A DNA stretch of 56,378 nucleotides from an uncultured Chthonomonas sp. Lineage in GTDB: Bacteria; Armatimonadota; Chthonomonadetes; Chthonomonadales; Chthonomonadaceae. Position numbers and translations under genes: made by a program. Position 1 is the first letter of the stretch; the number at the start of each line of letters is the position of its first letter. Location of the stretch: assembly GCA_903919615.1 (NCBI GenBank), contig CAIXIX010000425.1:1-56378 (forward strand). The letters are read 5' to 3'. Shown here piece after piece: positions 4,460-56,378 of this stretch. A model generated the notes under the pieces. It ran no database searches, was not told the DNA's origin, and worked only from the letters and a program-made list of their open reading frames with translations.

Positions 4460-5800
4460 CTAGATCTCGGCGAGGCGAGTTGCCGCGTCGCCGAAGTGAT
4501 CGAGTTTAACGCCCATGCGATCCATAATCGAAAGGTACAGGCTGCAGATCTTTCGGTTCTCGTCGCCCTTGTCGCGGAAGTTGAGAATGCGTCCCGTCTT
4601 CAGAGATCCGCCCAGCCCACCAACCGTGAGCACCGGCAACTTGGAGTTATCATGCTCAGAGCCGGAGTACATGCTGGAAAGCCATAGCAGGCAACTGTTA
4701 TCGAGCACTGTGCCCTGACCCTCTTTCATCGCGTCCAGCTTGCCAGCGAGATAGGCTAGCTGCGTGATGTAGTGGCGGGTGATACGCTCGTAACCATCCG
4801 ATGTGTCGTGATGCGACGCCAGATGGTGGGCATCTCGAACGTCCAAGAATGGGTAAAAGAGGCCAGAGAGATCTCTGCACATCAGCATAGTGGCAATACG
4901 GGTCTTATCGGTCTGGATCGCTAGTGCGACGATATCGCACATCAGGCGCATGTGCTCCCGAATGTCCTCAGGCAGACCGTTCTCCGGTCGCTTCATCGCG
5001 ATAAGCTGCTTTCCCTTGTCCTTTGCCCTGTCTGCTGCCTTGCCGAGATCCCCGCGCATCTTCTGGGCACGCTGCTCCACTTCCCGGACGCTGGTTAGGT
5101 ACTCGTCTAGGCGGCCACGATCGTCCCGACTTACCGATTTGCGCAAGCCCACGGCCTCTTCACTCACGCGATCCAGGATGCTCTCCATGCGGCGGCTTCC
5201 ACTGTTCTCGAACAGGCTGTCGAAAGCCAGAGAAGGGTACACCTCAGCCGGGACCGGCGAGTCGGGACTCTGCCAGGAGATATGCGAGCTGTAGGCCATG
5301 GAGAAGTTGGACTCATGGAAACCTGTGAGCGGCTGCTCACATGCAAGAATGAGGCTAGGCTGAATTGTCTCCTGGCCGAGGTGCGCGGCCAGAACTTGAT
5401 CGATGCTCGTGCCGCCGTGCAGAACGGTGCCGCGTGTGAGCGGCATCCCGGAGAGGATATTTCCCGTCATTCCCGGGTGGATGCCGACATTGGTGGCGGG
5501 CTTGTTGAAGAGCCCGTTGATCATGTTCAGTTTGGCTTTGTACGGGTCGAGCGGCTGAAGGCTTTTGCTGAGCTCCATAGAAGCCCCTTCACCCTTGGCC
5601 CACCAATGGGTTGGATTAATTCCCGTGCCCATGAACTGAACCACAAACCGCTTTGGAAGAGCGCTTGCCGTACCGCCCGGTGATGCCGAGCCCCATACGG
5701 GCAATGACTCCATCCACGGCAGCGCCATCATCACACCTGCGCCACGTAAAAACTTTCTGCGTGAAACCTGAGGAGAGTTAGGATTGCTCTCATTGGACAT
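4460..5800 (-). CDS. Tat-exported DUF1552 protein
   Basis: A 446-residue DUF1552 family protein. It has a twin-arginine signal at its N-terminus (SRRKFLRGAGVMMALP), and the remainder (MGTGINPTHWW near the start, DAHHLASHHDT and LWLSSMYSGSEHDNS further on) is typical of this family, whose function is unknown. DUF1552 proteins are almost always encoded beside DUF1592-type cytochromes, as here: the upstream gene ends 16 bases before this start, so the two form an operon. I start at the ATG at 5800 with AGGAAT about eight bases before it. A longer frame to 5953 would lie inside the neighbouring gene. Conserved His and Asp residues in the second half suggest metal binding or hydrolase chemistry, but that is inference. 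Confidence 0.85.
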   Translation of the reverse strand: MSNESNPNSPQVSRRKFLRGAGVMMALPWMESLPVWGSASPGGTASALPKRFVVQFMGTGINPTHWWAKGEGASMELSKSLQPLDPYKAKLNMINGLFNKPATNVGIHPGMTGNILSGMPLTRGTVLHGGTSIDQVLAAHLGQETIQPSLILACEQPLTGFHESNFSMAYSSHISWQSPDSPVPAEVYPSLAFDSLFENSGSRRMESILDRVSEEAVGLRKSVSRDDRGRLDEYLTSVREVEQRAQKMRGDLGKAADRAKDKGKQLIAMKRPENGLPEDIREHMRLMCDIVALAIQTDKTRIATMLMCRDLSGLFYPFLDVRDAHHLASHHDTSDGYERITRHYITQLAYLAGKLDAMKEGQGTVLDNSCLLWLSSMYSGSEHDNSKLPVLTVGGLGGSLKTGRILNFRDKGDENRKICSLYLSIMDRMGVKLDHFGDAATRLAEI

Positions 5801-5816
5801 CGGTGTAATTCCTATT

Positions 5817-8800
5817 CTAACCGGAAATACCGGCAGGTTTTGACGGGTGGTTGGAGAGCGCCGTTCGCTTGGACGGTTCGCCTGGAACGTTAAGACTGCT
5901 AGTGGCGACACGTGCCGACACCCTGTGATTGAGAAATTGTGGGCTCGTGACAATCGTTCGGATCATCGAGTTAAAGCGATAGCCGCCAGAAGCTAATCCC
6001 CGCTGCATCTGATCCATAATCGCATCATCGGAAGGCATGAGGGATCTCCCAAGCGCGTAGGATAACAGTTTTCTTGTATAGGTCTGTACAAACTGCTGCT
6101 GGCGGTGCTGGCGAATAAATGCCTGTAATCCCGCCACACCTGTACACTCCACGCCTCCCGGGAAGGGAGCGCTTGCGTCAACAGGTCGGCCACCCAGGTC
6201 TTTTATCCGCTGCTCACCAATCGGCCCATAGCCTTCGAAGACCAGACCATAGGAGTCGAACCGTGCATGGCAGCCCGAGCACGCAGGGTTCTTTCGGTGC
6301 TCTTCTAGCGCCTGCCGCAGGGTAAGTTTACCCATCTTGCTCTCATCGGCAGGCAGCAGCGGCACATTGGGAGGCGGCGCTGGGATTACCTCTCCAAGCA
6401 CTTTTCGCACCACCCAGTAACCCCGCTTAACGGGGCTGGTTCTTAGACCGGGTGCGTTCTTCGTGAGGAAGAGAGCCATCGGCAGCAGACCGCCTCTGCC
6501 ATAGGTTTCTGCGTTATCTACCTTTACCCATTGTCCGGAAGCAGGGCGAATATCGGTCATGCCGTAATGCTTCGCCAACAGGCTATTTACAAAGGTGTGA
6601 TGGCCATAGAGGATATCAAGTATTGGCCGATCGTTCTGGAACTGATCCATCAGGAAGTGGACCGGTTCTTCGAACATGGAGGACCGAAGGTCATCCGTAA
6701 AGACCGGAAACCGATTGCGATCGACCGCATTGTGCTCCTCAAAGCGTCGGTAGTCGAGCCAGTTTCCGCCGAACTCCACTGCGAGTGCACGGATACGTGG
6801 ATCTTTGAGCATTCGCGAGGCCTGTGCTGACAACACCTCCGGCCGGTGCAGATCGCCTGTGGCGGCATGTGCCATCAACTCTTTATCGGGCATGCTGGCC
6901 CACAAGAAGTAGCTCAACCTGTTTGCGAGAGCATAATCTGTGAGCGGCTCTACCGGATTGCCGCCTGGCCTGTGTGTCTGCAGCGCTGCCTGGGAAACGT
7001 GACTTGTGGTTACGGGCAGATCCGCTACTGGGCCAAGATCGATCCTGAACAGGAACTTGGGCGACATCAGGATGCTGACGATAGCGTCGCGCATCGCATC
7101 CTCATGTGAAAGCCCGTCACGTTTGCGCAGGGATTGGTAGAAGGCAACTACTTCTGACTTTTCAGCCTCGGTCAACGGCCGTCTGAACGCGCGACCCGCG
7201 AAATCTACAAGTCCTTTAACCTGGACCGGCTCCGAGGTTATTCTCCCACGCTCTGTCGCCCGAATTGTCGTTGAGACCCACTTAAAATGATCGACAATCG
7301 CCTGAATTGCCGCTGGTTCGCCGCCGTTTCGGCGCGCCTTGGCAAGATAGACTTCAGCAAAGCGCTTGATTTTGGCATCCGATGTCGCATCCGGGTCTTC
7401 TGAGCGCACAAAGTTGAACTCCGGTGTTGTGATCGTTGCCGATTCTGCACGCTCGTAGTGGAAGAACTCGAGATGCATTCTCTCCGGTACAAACGCAATC
7501 TGATTAAAGTCGAGCCACATGTGATCCAGGCGGCTGCGGCCGGCATCATCCAGGATGAGCTCCATTAGCGGTGTATCGTCGCGGAAGTAGCCCATAGAGT
7601 TGTGCAGCCCAGCGGTCAGCAGCCTTCCCTTATCGTCAGAATCATCAAACATGCGTCCGCGTTCTGAGATGTAGAACGCATCCGGGATCACATTGCAGAA
7701 CTCGCCGAACGATGCCAGGAAAGGCGCACGAGATGCTTCATCTTGAGGGACAAAGAGATCCGGGTCGGCGGCATCGGTGACAGTTTTCTTCTGATTGGTC
7801 GGGTTGCCAGGGCGATGCGGTTCGATGACATGTGTATGACCTACGCCCCCAACCTGCAGGGCATCCGTGTAGAGCATCCGCCGATGGCTGGCGTACTCGC
7901 GGTCCTTCCATAGAACAAAACACTGTCCGCCAACAGAAAAGCCCGCGGGAACGTTCAGGTTGGGAAACTTCCAGGCGACTTTTTTTCGAGTGCTCAACGC
8001 CCAATCACGGATTTGGGCGCATTGATCTCTAACTGCGGCGCTGCCCTGCCCCGTATTTTGAGGTATCGGAAGCTGATTCCAGCTCGCCTGCAACCGCGCG
8101 ATCGGGCCGACCTTATAGCCAGGCTCATTAAGCATGTGCCAGATCGTCTCAAGATAACGCGCACTGACTCCATTGGCATGTGCAATAGTTTCTAGCGATG
8201 TATCTGACCGATTAAGTGCCGTGCGATTCTTGTATTGCCATGCCGCAAAGAGATAAGAGGCGATATCTGTTGGCTGTTTCTTGTAGAAATCGACGATTCG
8301 TAGAATGCAGAACTTGTCCCTATCCGTATCCGCGAGTACGGGATGAGAGGCGAACTCGATCCCAGTTGAGGTAAGCGCCAGATGATCTGCAATATCGCGC
8401 GCGGCCTGCATGTACTTCTTTAAGAGCGCTGGCGAAAGGGTAAGCGATTCGCAGGAGTTATCAAAGCCCTCCTGATTGGCTGGGTCGACGGGAAACTCCT
8501 TTGTCGGCCTCAAGTCCTGACCCGTTAGATCGCGGATCGTATAATCATATTCAGCGTTGCTTAGCCTTCTCGCCGTAACTGGCCCGGGATCGCCTGCATT
8601 TCGTTCCGAATCGTAAGCTCTAACGGCGCGTACCCATGCTGTTACGGTTTGCACGGTGCGAGCGTCTGGCTTGCGGCTTCCGGAAGGCGGCATCTGACCA
8701 GCGTTGAGCTTATCCAGCACAAGCGCCCAGTGGCCGGAATCGCGCATGACAGTGTTGAGATCGGTAAAGGAGGCGAGATTGAGCTGCGCCTGCGGCTTCT

Positions 8801-9029
8801 GCGCTCCATGGCAATCGACGCAGTAGCTCTGTAGGAAGGGCTTGATGGTGGTGCTGAACTGCCTCTCGAGCCCATTACCGGACGGTGAAGGCGGCTTCGA
8901 TCCTGGAGTTGCATTCGTGGACACTGCAGCCCACGCCAAAAGACCGAGAAAACCAGCAAATGCCAAGATGCTTAAGGGTAGCCGTGTCTGTTCGCGAATA
9001 ACCAATGCGTAGAACTCCTGCTGCCGCAC
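5817..9029 (-). CDS. DUF1587/DUF1595/DUF1592/DUF1588/DUF1585 cytochrome-type protein
   Basis: A 1,070-residue exported protein of the multi-domain group long noted in Planctomycetes and Verrucomicrobia. A membrane or signal helix (about residues 17-37) is followed by a cytochrome-like region with haem-binding CVDCH at 70-74. The DUF1587 region follows (RRLSNAEYDYTIRDL), then a long middle segment, DUF1592/DUF1588 blocks (FLMSPKF-like, RPILDILYG, MTDIRPASGQW), and a second haem motif CSGCH near residue 955 before DUF1585. The role is unproven; fusion of haem and these domains suggests periplasmic electron transfer, perhaps tied to degradation of an oxidised substrate by the DUF1552 partner. 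The start is GTG at 9029 with GGTGCGG nearby; a TTG about eight codons later is an alternative. Confidence 0.82.
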   Translation of the reverse strand: MRQQEFYALVIREQTRLPLSILAFAGFLGLLAWAAVSTNATPGSKPPSPSGNGLERQFSTTIKPFLQSYCVDCHGAQKPQAQLNLASFTDLNTVMRDSGHWALVLDKLNAGQMPPSGSRKPDARTVQTVTAWVRAVRAYDSERNAGDPGPVTARRLSNAEYDYTIRDLTGQDLRPTKEFPVDPANQEGFDNSCESLTLSPALLKKYMQAARDIADHLALTSTGIEFASHPVLADTDRDKFCILRIVDFYKKQPTDIASYLFAAWQYKNRTALNRSDTSLETIAHANGVSARYLETIWHMLNEPGYKVGPIARLQASWNQLPIPQNTGQGSAAVRDQCAQIRDWALSTRKKVAWKFPNLNVPAGFSVGGQCFVLWKDREYASHRRMLYTDALQVGGVGHTHVIEPHRPGNPTNQKKTVTDAADPDLFVPQDEASRAPFLASFGEFCNVIPDAFYISERGRMFDDSDDKGRLLTAGLHNSMGYFRDDTPLMELILDDAGRSRLDHMWLDFNQIAFVPERMHLEFFHYERAESATITTPEFNFVRSEDPDATSDAKIKRFAEVYLAKARRNGGEPAAIQAIVDHFKWVSTTIRATERGRITSEPVQVKGLVDFAGRAFRRPLTEAEKSEVVAFYQSLRKRDGLSHEDAMRDAIVSILMSPKFLFRIDLGPVADLPVTTSHVSQAALQTHRPGGNPVEPLTDYALANRLSYFLWASMPDKELMAHAATGDLHRPEVLSAQASRMLKDPRIRALAVEFGGNWLDYRRFEEHNAVDRNRFPVFTDDLRSSMFEEPVHFLMDQFQNDRPILDILYGHHTFVNSLLAKHYGMTDIRPASGQWVKVDNAETYGRGGLLPMALFLTKNAPGLRTSPVKRGYWVVRKVLGEVIPAPPPNVPLLPADESKMGKLTLRQALEEHRKNPACSGCHARFDSYGLVFEGYGPIGEQRIKDLGGRPVDASAPFPGGVECTGVAGLQAFIRQHRQQQFVQTYTRKLLSYALGRSLMPSDDAIMDQMQRGLASGGYRFNSMIRTIVTSPQFLNHRVSARVATSSLNVPGEPSKRTALSNHPSKPAGISG

Positions 9030-9192
9030 CTGAACCCAGAACGGCTTGCCGGACCAGTAGAATTGAGTGAGCTAATTACGGGGCTGAACGAGCCAACGAT
9101 GATCGAAACAGACCACGCCCGTTATAAACAGTAGGACTGATAATATCACATATCGTTACATTGAATACAGATTATGCTGAACAAAATGCGCA

Positions 9193-9247
9193 TAGGCAGG
9201 CTTAACTTCGCTATGGACCGCAAATCCTTAGCGCAGCAGCCTGCCTA
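9193..9247. terminator. Long two-part stem-loop
   Basis: TAGGCAGGCT at 9193-9202 is perfectly complementary to AGCCTGCCTA at 9238-9247. Inside lies a second perfect stem, CGCTA at 9209-9213 with TAGCG at 9229-9233. It lies downstream of the minus-strand lipoprotein gene and upstream of the DUF1592 operon, so it may end the former's transcript. There is only a weak T-rich tail (GCGCATTTTG), so a processing or regulatory role is equally possible. Confidence 0.45.
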
Positions 9248-9307
9248 GACCAGCGTATTGTTAGTTGTAAAACGGTAACTTAAGCCGTAATTGACCCCTT
9301 ATCGCAA

Positions 9308-9766
9308 CTACTTTTTCGCTACGGTCAGCTTGAAACTGATAAGTGCATCGGCGCCTTTTTCTGGATGCCCGGTAACATCAACAGTGAAATCGCCCAGAGA
9401 AGCGTCGCTGCGAGCTATAATTGCGACCTTCACATCTTCATCACCATGTTTGATCGTAGGTGATGACGGTTCAATCCTGATACCTGTTGGAAGCTCACCG
9501 AACTTCACTTTAATGTCCGAATCGAAACTCTTGCCTCGCTTAACGCCAATGGATGACTCTATGCGTTCACCCTGTTTGATCGACGTTGGCAGCATCGGAG
9601 TGCTCAAATTAAACGTATCATCCGCTTGGATTACCTGAGATTTAGTCAACGACGAGTCGATCTTTCCGGCGCCGCCGGGAATGCCCTGATTGCAGCCAGC
9701 AATGATTACAACCGTTACGGCTGATAGCGCGGTGATGAGGGATATATTGCGTAATAACTTCTTCAC
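9308..9766 (-). CDS. Small lipoprotein of the Planctomycete-type Ig-like group
   Basis: A 152-residue lipoprotein: basic start (MKKLLRN), hydrophobic stretch, lipobox ending IAGC at about residue 25. The mature part resembles a bacterial Ig-like or cohesion-type beta domain (IKVKFGELPTGIRIEPSSPT, then LGDFTVDVTGHPEKGA). I have seen similar short lipoproteins annotated as hypothetical in Planctomycetes and relatives; no function is known. It starts with GTG, with AAAGG about nine bases before. It appears monocistronic. Confidence 0.72.
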   Translation of the reverse strand: MKKLLRNISLITALSAVTVVIIAGCNQGIPGGAGKIDSSLTKSQVIQADDTFNLSTPMLPTSIKQGERIESSIGVKRGKSFDSDIKVKFGELPTGIRIEPSSPTIKHGDEDVKVAIIARSDASLGDFTVDVTGHPEKGADALISFKLTVAKK

Positions 9767-54205: not shown

Positions 54206-54517
54206 TGGTTTACTCGAATTCGAAATTTGTGGAGGCACGGCGCTCAATGCCATTATAGACCAGTGGAGCTCCTTGCACAAGGGGGCAGATCTGAGCAAAG
54301 CCCCATTGCATGGGTAGAGTATCCTACGATTTGACTATTCAAAATTCAAAAACAACGGCGATAGAAACAATCTTCCGACACCGATACAAAGCATCTGGCA
54401 TAATAGAGTAACAATGAACGATATAAAGGATTCACAAACCTTTAACCGAATGTACTGAGTAGAAAGATTAGAACAGCTAAGTTTGGTTGCAAACATTCTT
54501 AGCGAGGGAGAGAATAC
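54206..54517. other. Divergent intergenic region, no gene seen
   Basis: About 310 bases between divergent genes. The middle is AT-rich (TATTCAAAATTCAAAAAC at 54335-54352, then TGGCATAATAGAG at 54392), probably promoters in both directions. I see no repeat family member, RNA gene or coding frame here. Confidence 0.4.
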
Positions 54518-55069
54518 TTGACACTTGTTGCGTTGACGGAGACCAGGGCTATCGCTCAGGCGTACGCGAAGTTTTGCCAGCATTTTGATGCAGATTGCGA
54601 TGTTCTGGAAAGAACAATCAGCATCCAGGGTGGCAGTGAGCCTGCGACGGTGCGCTGGTTCCCGGCACTCAACTTCTGGGTCCGATTGAGTCCGCGAAAC
54701 CAGGCCACCGGCTACTTTTGTGGCTTTGGTACTGAGGACCCGAACCAGGCAGAGAATCTCACATTTACCTGTGAGATCAATCCGCCGATTACTGGCATCG
54801 ATAAGCATCGGGCCGGACTGTTTGTCCGAAGCGACAATGGAACCATCTACCTTGCGCACAGCGGCAGCATCGCCGGCGGCAGGCCCGGCGTTGGCAGAAC
54901 ACGGTTCCTGAAGTTCTACGGCAACGACACCATCGATGAGGTCTACTGGCCGGACAAGACAGTTACCGAGTACATCATCATCGGAGCGCTGGATGATCCG
55001 GAGCTGAAAGAGCATGTGGCGGCTTTTGTGTACAAAATCGCTGAGTTTAAACAGCTCTCTGCAAAGTAA
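54518..55069 (+). CDS. Conserved protein of unknown function
   Basis: A 183-residue soluble protein; TTG start with GAGGGAGAG about ten bases upstream. I do not know its function. The segment FTCEINPPITGIDKHRAGLF, VRSDNGTIYLAHSGSIAGGR, PGVGRTRFLKFY has the look of a conserved beta domain (INPP, HSG.IAGGRPGVG) that I recall as a hypothetical protein in Proteobacteria, sometimes next to restriction-type nucleases. No such partner is near. No membrane segment, no signal. Confidence 0.6.
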   Translation: MTLVALTETRAIAQAYAKFCQHFDADCDVLERTISIQGGSEPATVRWFPALNFWVRLSPRNQATGYFCGFGTEDPNQAENLTFTCEINPPITGIDKHRAGLFVRSDNGTIYLAHSGSIAGGRPGVGRTRFLKFYGNDTIDEVYWPDKTVTEYIIIGALDDPELKEHVAAFVYKIAEFKQLSAK

Positions 55070-55305: not shown

Positions 55306-55743
55306 CTAACGTGCCGCTGTAGCCTCGTGGAACACCGGCAGTCCGGATACCTCCTGCATGTCTGGAGAGATGTCGAAACTCACCGTAGTAAGCTCCGGGC
55401 ACCTCTGACATGCTTTCGGGCCCTCTTGCGAGTACCACCTGCATTCCTTCCGAATCGTACATCTAGGCAACGACTCGACTGCTGCCGGCAGCAGGGTCAC
55501 CACACGCTTCGCCAGTTGACAATCGCTTCCATCGAAGTGAGGACACTTATGTTCGGCACAGGTCGCCGATAAGCGAAACACCTCTGTTGGCGCAACTGGC
55601 GCCGCCATCGCTAGGAGTTCAGGAGTTGCTGCGACGCGTTCATTTAGGTATGCCAGCTTGACAGCGCTTCCTTCAGGCTGGACAAGACCGATGATTGTAC
55701 AGTTATCCATACCAGGCTGAGCGCTGGGACAGAGCTTGGACAT
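55306..55743 (-). CDS. Cysteine-rich protein of unknown function
   Basis: A 145-residue cytoplasmic protein. The second half has a striking array of conserved-looking cysteines: CAEHKC, CPHFDGSDC, LPRCTIRKEC, CRWYSQEG, then CQRC, giving spacings C-x4-C-x7-C and C-x5-C, CxxC. This would suit an iron-sulfur cluster or zinc site. The first part has MSKLCPSAQPGM. I recall similar short proteins with this cysteine pattern in cyanobacteria, but no function. GGAGGTGAT ahead of the ATG is an ideal ribosome site. It follows the upstream gene by 24 bases, so they form an operon. Confidence 0.65.
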   Translation of the reverse strand: MSKLCPSAQPGMDNCTIIGLVQPEGSAVKLAYLNERVAATPELLAMAAPVAPTEVFRLSATCAEHKCPHFDGSDCQLAKRVVTLLPAAVESLPRCTIRKECRWYSQEGPKACQRCPELTTVSFDISPDMQEVSGLPVFHEATAAR

Positions 55744-55767
55744 GTCATCACCTCCAGGGTGCAGTAA

Positions 55768-56124
55768 CTATTCGACCCTCGTTACCGGCGGTATTCCGCA
55801 AACAACGTGGTGTCCCATCACCTGCACGATTCCGCCTGAATTCGGCTTTGCCACTAGAACTTCCGCTCTAAGGCCGCCCGCAACTTCGGATCCGCCTGCT
55901 ACATGTTCGGCGATATTGTCTGCGAGACCCTGTAATTCAGCAAGGGTCTGCTTTTCCGCAATCTCCCAGTCTATCCAGATGCCGTTAATCAGTTTCGAGA
56001 TAACGATTCGGTTATCGCCTTCAGTGTCAACTGCAAAACTTGGGTTCCGCTTGACTGCGGCAGCGACCGCTTCGTTGATCTTCGAAGTGAATTCACTCAA
56101 TGAGATGCTAGGTGCTCCTGTCAT
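55768..56124 (-). CDS. Unknown small protein, partner of the cysteine-rich protein
   Basis: A 118-residue protein without signal or membrane helix. The first 60 residues are helical and charged (LSEFTSKINEAVAAAVKRNP, LINGIWIDWEIAEKQTLAEL); the last 30 contain Gly, Val and Pro (GGIVQVMGHHVVCGIPPVTR). The start is ATG at 56124, chosen because GGGAGGG lies eight bases upstream; a longer frame to 56280 has no site. I recognise no domain. Its tight link to the cysteine-rich protein implies a common role. Confidence 0.55.
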   Translation of the reverse strand: MTGAPSISLSEFTSKINEAVAAAVKRNPSFAVDTEGDNRIVISKLINGIWIDWEIAEKQTLAELQGLADNIAEHVAGGSEVAGGLRAEVLVAKPNSGGIVQVMGHHVVCGIPPVTRVE

Positions 56125-56378
56125 TGGATTGTCCCTCCCAGGACGGTAAACGACTTCATTGACGCACTGATTGACCACACAGTTAGCATGATAGTCGGAA
56201 TGGAATGCTCGTTCTCGCGAGATACAGCCTGCAATTCGGTATCTCCTCAATAACTCGGGGTAGGTTTCTGTTTTGTGCAACCCATCACCGTTTCATCGCA
56301 TTCTCTCGTTGCCTTTGTTTTGCTCACGGGAATCTTTGATTCCGCGCCTCCGTAACAGTAGGTATATGGTCGGCCGGC
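56125..56378. other. Window end, no gene seen
   Basis: The last 250 bases show no convincing coding frame on either strand. The promoter of the cysteine-rich operon should lie here, upstream of 56124. Confidence 0.3.

Follow-up and report, generated by a model that had tools for sequence, protein, structure and literature searches.

At its right end the window (the whole stretch of DNA that was analyzed, 56,378 bases long and ending where its contig ends) carries, on the minus strand, two neighbouring genes that are also found next to each other in other bacteria. The upstream gene encodes a small protein, here called the partner, and the downstream gene a cysteine-rich protein. The pair is read, tentatively and at somewhat less than even confidence, as a minimal two-gene module consisting of a precursor-like peptide and a protein with eight cysteines (Fe-S or Zn) dedicated to maturing or carrying it. 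The first-pass annotation had described two genes with excellent ribosome sites and a 24-base gap, all of which the sequence bears out (ribosome sites GGAGGTGA and GGGAGGG):

55306..55743, minus strand: cysteine-protein gene, 145 aa, ATG start (open reading frame; alignment of 40 proteins)
55744..55767, minus strand: 24-base gap TTACTGCACCCTGGAGGTGATGAC between the partner and cysteine genes (sequence reading)
55744..55767, minus strand: ribosome site GGAGGTGA before the cysteine-gene ATG, inside the 24-base gap
55768..56124, minus strand: partner gene, 118 aa, ATG start (open reading frame, composition, ribosome site, alignment of 10, family of 23)
56125..56150, minus strand: ribosome site GGGAGGG before the partner-gene ATG (sequence reading)

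On the minus strand the partner gene (56124-55768) comes first and the cysteine gene (55743-55306) second, the partner gene has 254 bases of contig upstream of it, and each protein is present in one copy in the source genome. The partner had been called small and charged; it is small (118 aa), and charged in part (9 K+R and 14 D+E of 118 residues). Adjoining the pair, at 54335-55069, lie two overlapping ORFs on opposite strands; Pfam gave nothing for the plus-strand ORF (54518-55069, 183 aa), which leaves that gene unassigned as well.

A scan of genome contigs gave 35 stretches that fit a pattern, nine of which encode a relative; these come from Acidobacteria MAGs, a MAG labelled Proteobacteria and two Methylocystis. 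Both genes are adjacent and on the same strand in all nine of these loci, and so in 10/10 when the window is counted (window and L004-L012); in ten-row alignments the identity to the window is 64-67% for the cysteine protein and 31-37% for the partner. Among the matches listed, the neighbours of the nine close loci include no other real shared gene beyond small kin sets. Linkage was scanned more widely with an iterated partner profile run against all six-frame ORFs of at least 40 aa at 39 loci (5191 ORFs), leaving out L037, L038 and L047, which are second copies in Methylocystis and relatives; the rows for plasmid matches H3 and H4 (A. vitis, tied in score with H2) and for the weak fragments L068 (E 5e-4), L085 (1.4e-4) and L086 (5.4e-4) were dropped. 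When the iteration was ended after five rounds, at which stage each round still brought in two more ORFs, the profile had 23 matches, all of which immediately precede a cysteine gene in the same orientation. The profile had been trained on ten of these and 13 are new, with no off-target match among the 5191 ORFs; an apparent overlap of the two genes at L020 and L075 arises only because the cysteine ORF is drawn from an early start codon. The homologues are thus linked rather than occurring separately, as expected of the uncharacterized pair that had been proposed, and 23/39 cysteine-gene loci have a recognizable partner homologue directly upstream.

This side-by-side recurrence in other bacteria, together with a dN/dS well below 1 for both genes in four close pairs (cysteine gene 0.06-0.11, partner 0.09-0.21), argues that the pair is not due to chance. 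The protein distances of the two members correlate across 11 loci (r 0.87, a value reached by 0/10000 permutations). In 54/55 pairs the cysteine protein is better conserved than the partner (mean identity 74% versus 52%), as for an enzyme compared with its substrate, by analogy. The partner profile A2 matched 1/396 genomes in the phylum of G292, namely one of the six that carry the cysteine gene; the other five have partners that are either beyond the reach of A2 or of a different kind.

The cysteine protein has cysteines at residues 5, 15, 62, 67, 75, 95, 101, 112 and 115, and the spacing reported earlier (C-x4-C-x7-C at 62-67-75, C-x5-C at 95-101, C-x2-C at 112-115) is exact. All of these except C15 are invariant in the ten-row alignment (C5, C62, C67, C75, C95, C101, C112 and C115). 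Among 40 cysteine proteins from 39 loci in at least five phyla, C62, C67, C95, C101, C112 and C115 are present in 40/40, C75 in 39/40 and C5 in 37/40, the other three being gaps, two of which (L016 and L056) are ascribed to trimming because the reading frame shows an N-terminal cysteine; C15 is unconserved. Residue 69 is H in 32/40 and otherwise N or Q, R98 is present in 40/40, W103 in 39/40, and Q106, beside the cysteines, is also near-invariant. Because the eight conserved cysteines keep their order across proteins that in the wider set share only about 30% mutual identity, their arrangement suggests two four-cysteine metal sites, and the protein probably holds metal. That the metal is Fe-S rather than Zn is a guess, made because R98, W103 and Q106 near the cysteines are near-invariant too. 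The metal site envisaged in the first-pass annotation is therefore plausible from the invariance of the cysteines, but known Fe-S or Zn families give no match.

The absence of a recognizable domain, also noted earlier, comports with the database searches, in which Pfam, NCBIfam and PADLOC returned a meaningful match to neither protein. The best PHROGs match, of the partner to phrog_12097, is weak (E 0.0049) and is annotated as of unknown function. For the cysteine protein, a weak Pfam match to Zn_ribbon_RRN7 (residues 93-115, E 0.14, 12.3 bits where the cut-off is 27.1) would favor a zinc-finger-like regulator or adaptor that binds nucleic acid or protein with the help of a small co-factor. 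This reading is improbable, however: the match is far under the cut-off and occurs in 1/12 members only, and four conserved cysteines lie outside it. A zinc ribbon has two CxxC/CxxH knuckles, and the window protein has a single CxxC. AlphaFold models built from the ten-row alignments were unusable (mean pLDDT 38 for the cysteine protein and 58 for the partner), and Foldseek with the low-confidence partner model found no match at E <= 0.001. Structure-sequence search found no solved relative of either protein. A match of the cysteine profile to 8vd6 (E 0.016) was gone with a wider profile, and matches of the partner to designed helical proteins (best E 2.5e-05) and to a Clp-N protein (E 0.065) are taken to reflect helix composition. 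A search of openly licensed papers gave no account of the pair, nor any under five accession or locus names; no scanned library model covers either protein, and the pair looks undescribed.

The window partner has an N-terminal helix motif SISLSEFTSKINEAVAAAV, a middle strand motif INGIWID, a variable stretch and a C-terminal HHVVCGIPP. Across its family of 23 the N-terminal helix is conserved (approximately S-I-S-x-x-x-L-x-x-A-V), a G-hydrophobic motif lies in a strand, the rest varies, and length ranges from 62 to 118 aa (leaving out L012, L049 and L069, whose lengths were discounted because these rows were badly trimmed). Within the partner's own group the C-terminus is kept and is not hypervariable (ten-row alignment). 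No leader family in NCBIfam or Pfam matches the window partner, nor does the NHLP leader TIGR03793 at E up to 1. A hydrophobic-G-hydrophobic motif common to all partner types was considered; this pattern was picked after the sequences were seen, and it is clear solely in the homologous family, whose rows are non-independent. Among the 12 non-homologous small ORFs it occurs in seven, versus a shuffle mean of 4.2 (reached in 136/2000 shuffles), and it was dropped as an argument because these ORFs are not above shuffles.

In the main rival reading the pair makes a stable metalloprotein complex with a structural or redox role, and the small protein is an unmodified subunit or chaperone. This is the less probable explanation, at about the upper end of what may be called unlikely. 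Purifying selection on the partner in the close group, retention of its C-terminal motif, its predicted helix-strand fold (of low confidence) and the absence of RiPP genes next to most loci are what a complex would lead one to expect; the range of partner lengths in the family and the replacement of the partner by unrelated small ORFs, RiPP-type precursors included, in 11/39 loci are not.

These 11 loci, where the partner profile does not match the upstream small ORF, comprise one type shared by L055 and L077; the single small ORFs of L072 and of L078, which are candidate genes, unproven; three types before the four Streptomyces genes (L016, L017, L048 and L080); SGG leaders at Spirosoma and L073; and a double NHLP leader at Nostoc. 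The Nostoc ORF (L014) is an NHLP RiPP precursor (TIGR03793, E 3.6e-32), and the leaders of Spirosoma (L018) and L073 have a double-glycine-type signal, with TIGR01847 just under its cut-off. A further five of the 39 loci (L019, L056, L076, L081 and L082) lack an upstream partner, and therefore some cysteine proteins work without one; at L019 a small ORF, followed by a radical-SAM gene, lies downstream of the cysteine gene.

Some relatives stand beside the genes of known peptide systems. In Nostoc sp. C057 the NHLP precursor is directly upstream of the cysteine gene, and an NHLP exporter, a secretion protein, a SagB dehydrogenase and a TOMM protein are encoded within 9 kb; in Spirosoma, NHLP exporter genes and the SGG-leader peptide precede the cysteine gene. 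The likeness to proteusin/NHLP systems thus consists in cysteine genes that follow an NHLP precursor or NHLP exporter genes, with SagB/TOMM genes also nearby in Nostoc. The window pair differs in that its partner has no NHLP leader and that neither a peptide maturase nor an exporter of its own can be made out next to it, the contig ending 254 bases upstream. Likewise, among the best 25 of 65 families listed for the 31 window ORFs there is no known peptide-modification enzyme beside the pair.

The Polymorphobacter cysteine gene is near a small peptide ORF and a cyclophane-type (YhhB/FxsB) radical-SAM maturase, which among NCBIfam families matches YhhB best (E 1.1e-84, short of the family cut-off). 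Cyclophane radical-SAM/SPASM systems and the window pair have in common a cysteine-rich protein and a small peptide. Radical-SAM enzymes are recognized by a CX3CX2C cluster motif, with a SPASM domain as companion criterion. Unlike them, the window cysteine protein has no CX3CX2C in its cysteine spacing, and a Pfam and NCBIfam scan of 12 members gave no radical-SAM or SPASM match. At L050, L055, L069, L072, L073, L076, L077 and L078 the neighbours are housekeeping or unrelated genes, by eye. As to the metal or redox system proposed in the first-pass annotation, the uncharacterized pair is supported, and the surroundings of distant relatives favor a peptide with a processing partner over a metabolic redox pair.

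Three of the Streptomyces loci (L016, L048 and L080, but not L017) have another arrangement, in which an HTH-TPR regulator gene is followed by a gene for a small peptide (45 or 77 aa), which overlaps it by 4 bases, and then by the cysteine gene; the HTH-TPR domain scan covered one of the three regulators (P0013). These sets are possibly peptide-signalling sets. According to PMC10075063, RRNPP systems in their simplest form are a receptor and a propeptide. The Streptomyces order of HTH-TPR regulator and small peptide gene is of this kind, with the difference that a cysteine protein is added here and that the window pair has no adjoining TPR regulator. Were the window pair itself a signalling module, the small protein would be a signal propeptide and the cysteine protein a processing or sensing factor. 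There is little likelihood of this, as no TPR receptor or HTH-TPR regulator gene is seen beside the window pair (best 25 of 65 families listed, 31 ORFs) or, for the regulator, at the other loci read, and the partner profile does not match the Streptomyces peptides. The plasmid coordinates of the three sets are 7416-9444 (L016), 5877-7662 (L048) and 4569-6345 (L080), and their peptides end in cysteine (PAC, SAC and SAC, respectively).

The family is thinly distributed. A plasmid tblastn matched 8/72,556 records (Nostoc, three A. vitis with equal score, two Streptomyces, Spirosoma and Polymorphobacter), and a third Streptomyces came from two more queries. In searches with the 12-row profile A3, relatives were found in 3/291 genomes of the window's phylum, two of them weak fragments (1/291 with a narrower profile), in 9/199 genomes of the Methylocystis family, in 6/396 of the phylum of the acidobacterium of L005, and in 8/398, one of them weak, of the phylum of the Methylocystis of L008; a profile search of a same-genus genome found the cysteine gene absent. 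The genome count of the window's phylum in this set (291, fewer than in either of the other two phyla) indicates that it is neither of them. Because similarity between phyla is close while presence is sparse, these sequence comparisons point to horizontal spread of the pair within a sparse and patchy family.

Such patchy spread between phyla, two small adjacent genes, and relatives that are sometimes on plasmids or beside bacteriocin exporters could also be accounted for by a small toxin or bacteriocin with a cysteine-rich immunity or sequestering protein. This explanation is very improbable: PADLOC gave no match, the supposed immunity protein is the conserved member, and some cysteine proteins have no partner upstream. 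A phage origin was considered and rejected. Among 50,697 phage records one matched, MT836289 (L020, MT836289.1, filed as 'Bacteriophage sp.'), which is an unannotated faecal contig with ORFs like those of an actinobacterial chromosome, by eye, including a peptidase, regulators and two-component genes. In IMG/VR the narrower profile found no relatives and the wider profile found two contigs with distant relatives.

The simplest account of the above is that the window carries the minimal form of a cysteine protein that serves precursor-like peptides. In the proposed mechanism the upstream gene would give a small precursor-like peptide, of which the conserved N-terminal helix would be the recognition part and the remainder would change faster. 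The eight conserved cysteines of the downstream protein would bind metal, most likely in two four-cysteine sites, and this protein would bind the peptide encoded next to it and then modify, protect or hand on that peptide. The module would be these two genes at its minimum, passed on horizontally, and only certain hosts would have brought in further RiPP enzymes and exporters. Weighing against this account are the missing leader match and the conserved C-terminus of the window partner, the lack of an evident maturase or exporter next to the pair, the housekeeping surroundings of most relatives, and the five loci with nothing partner-like upstream. A stronger version, that a stand-alone protein of ~130-150 residues with eight cysteines, two Fe-S sites and no radical-SAM fold modifies the co-encoded peptide alone, is doubtful. 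If true, it would be a new class of peptide maturation and the smallest such system, one spread horizontally and serving as an add-on to NHLP, radical-SAM and TPR-regulated peptide systems. The eight-cysteine family occurs in at least five phyla and is tied to small peptide genes, and in these scans no Pfam or NCBIfam model covered it. If the cysteine protein acts on peptides, the family would offer a handle on new peptide chemistry, and genome mining with it could find precursors that leader models miss.

Several individual loci have further features. On the A. vitis plasmid pAvCG78b (L015, 3621-7641) a CHAT-TPR gene related to TPR proteins of the FxSxx-COOH system is near the pair, and the cysteine gene itself is without annotation in the (incomplete) gene table. 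The two IMG/VR contigs (L081, 5761-7701, and L082, about 5733-7565) have no upstream peptide gene before the distant relative, which is followed by an MFS-type transporter gene (assigned from a domain scan on L081). L073, from a 10 Mb genome, has two tandem cysteine genes at 7423-8689 with an SGG-leader peptide ORF between them (core ESCTGCGGGCEQDCSGTGGG...). The ORF upstream of L073 7423 shares a stretch, AKQRA(I/L)EAR, with the N-terminal extension of the Nostoc cysteine protein (L014, 8707-9000), which is perhaps a further shared element of these two cysteine-protein loci.
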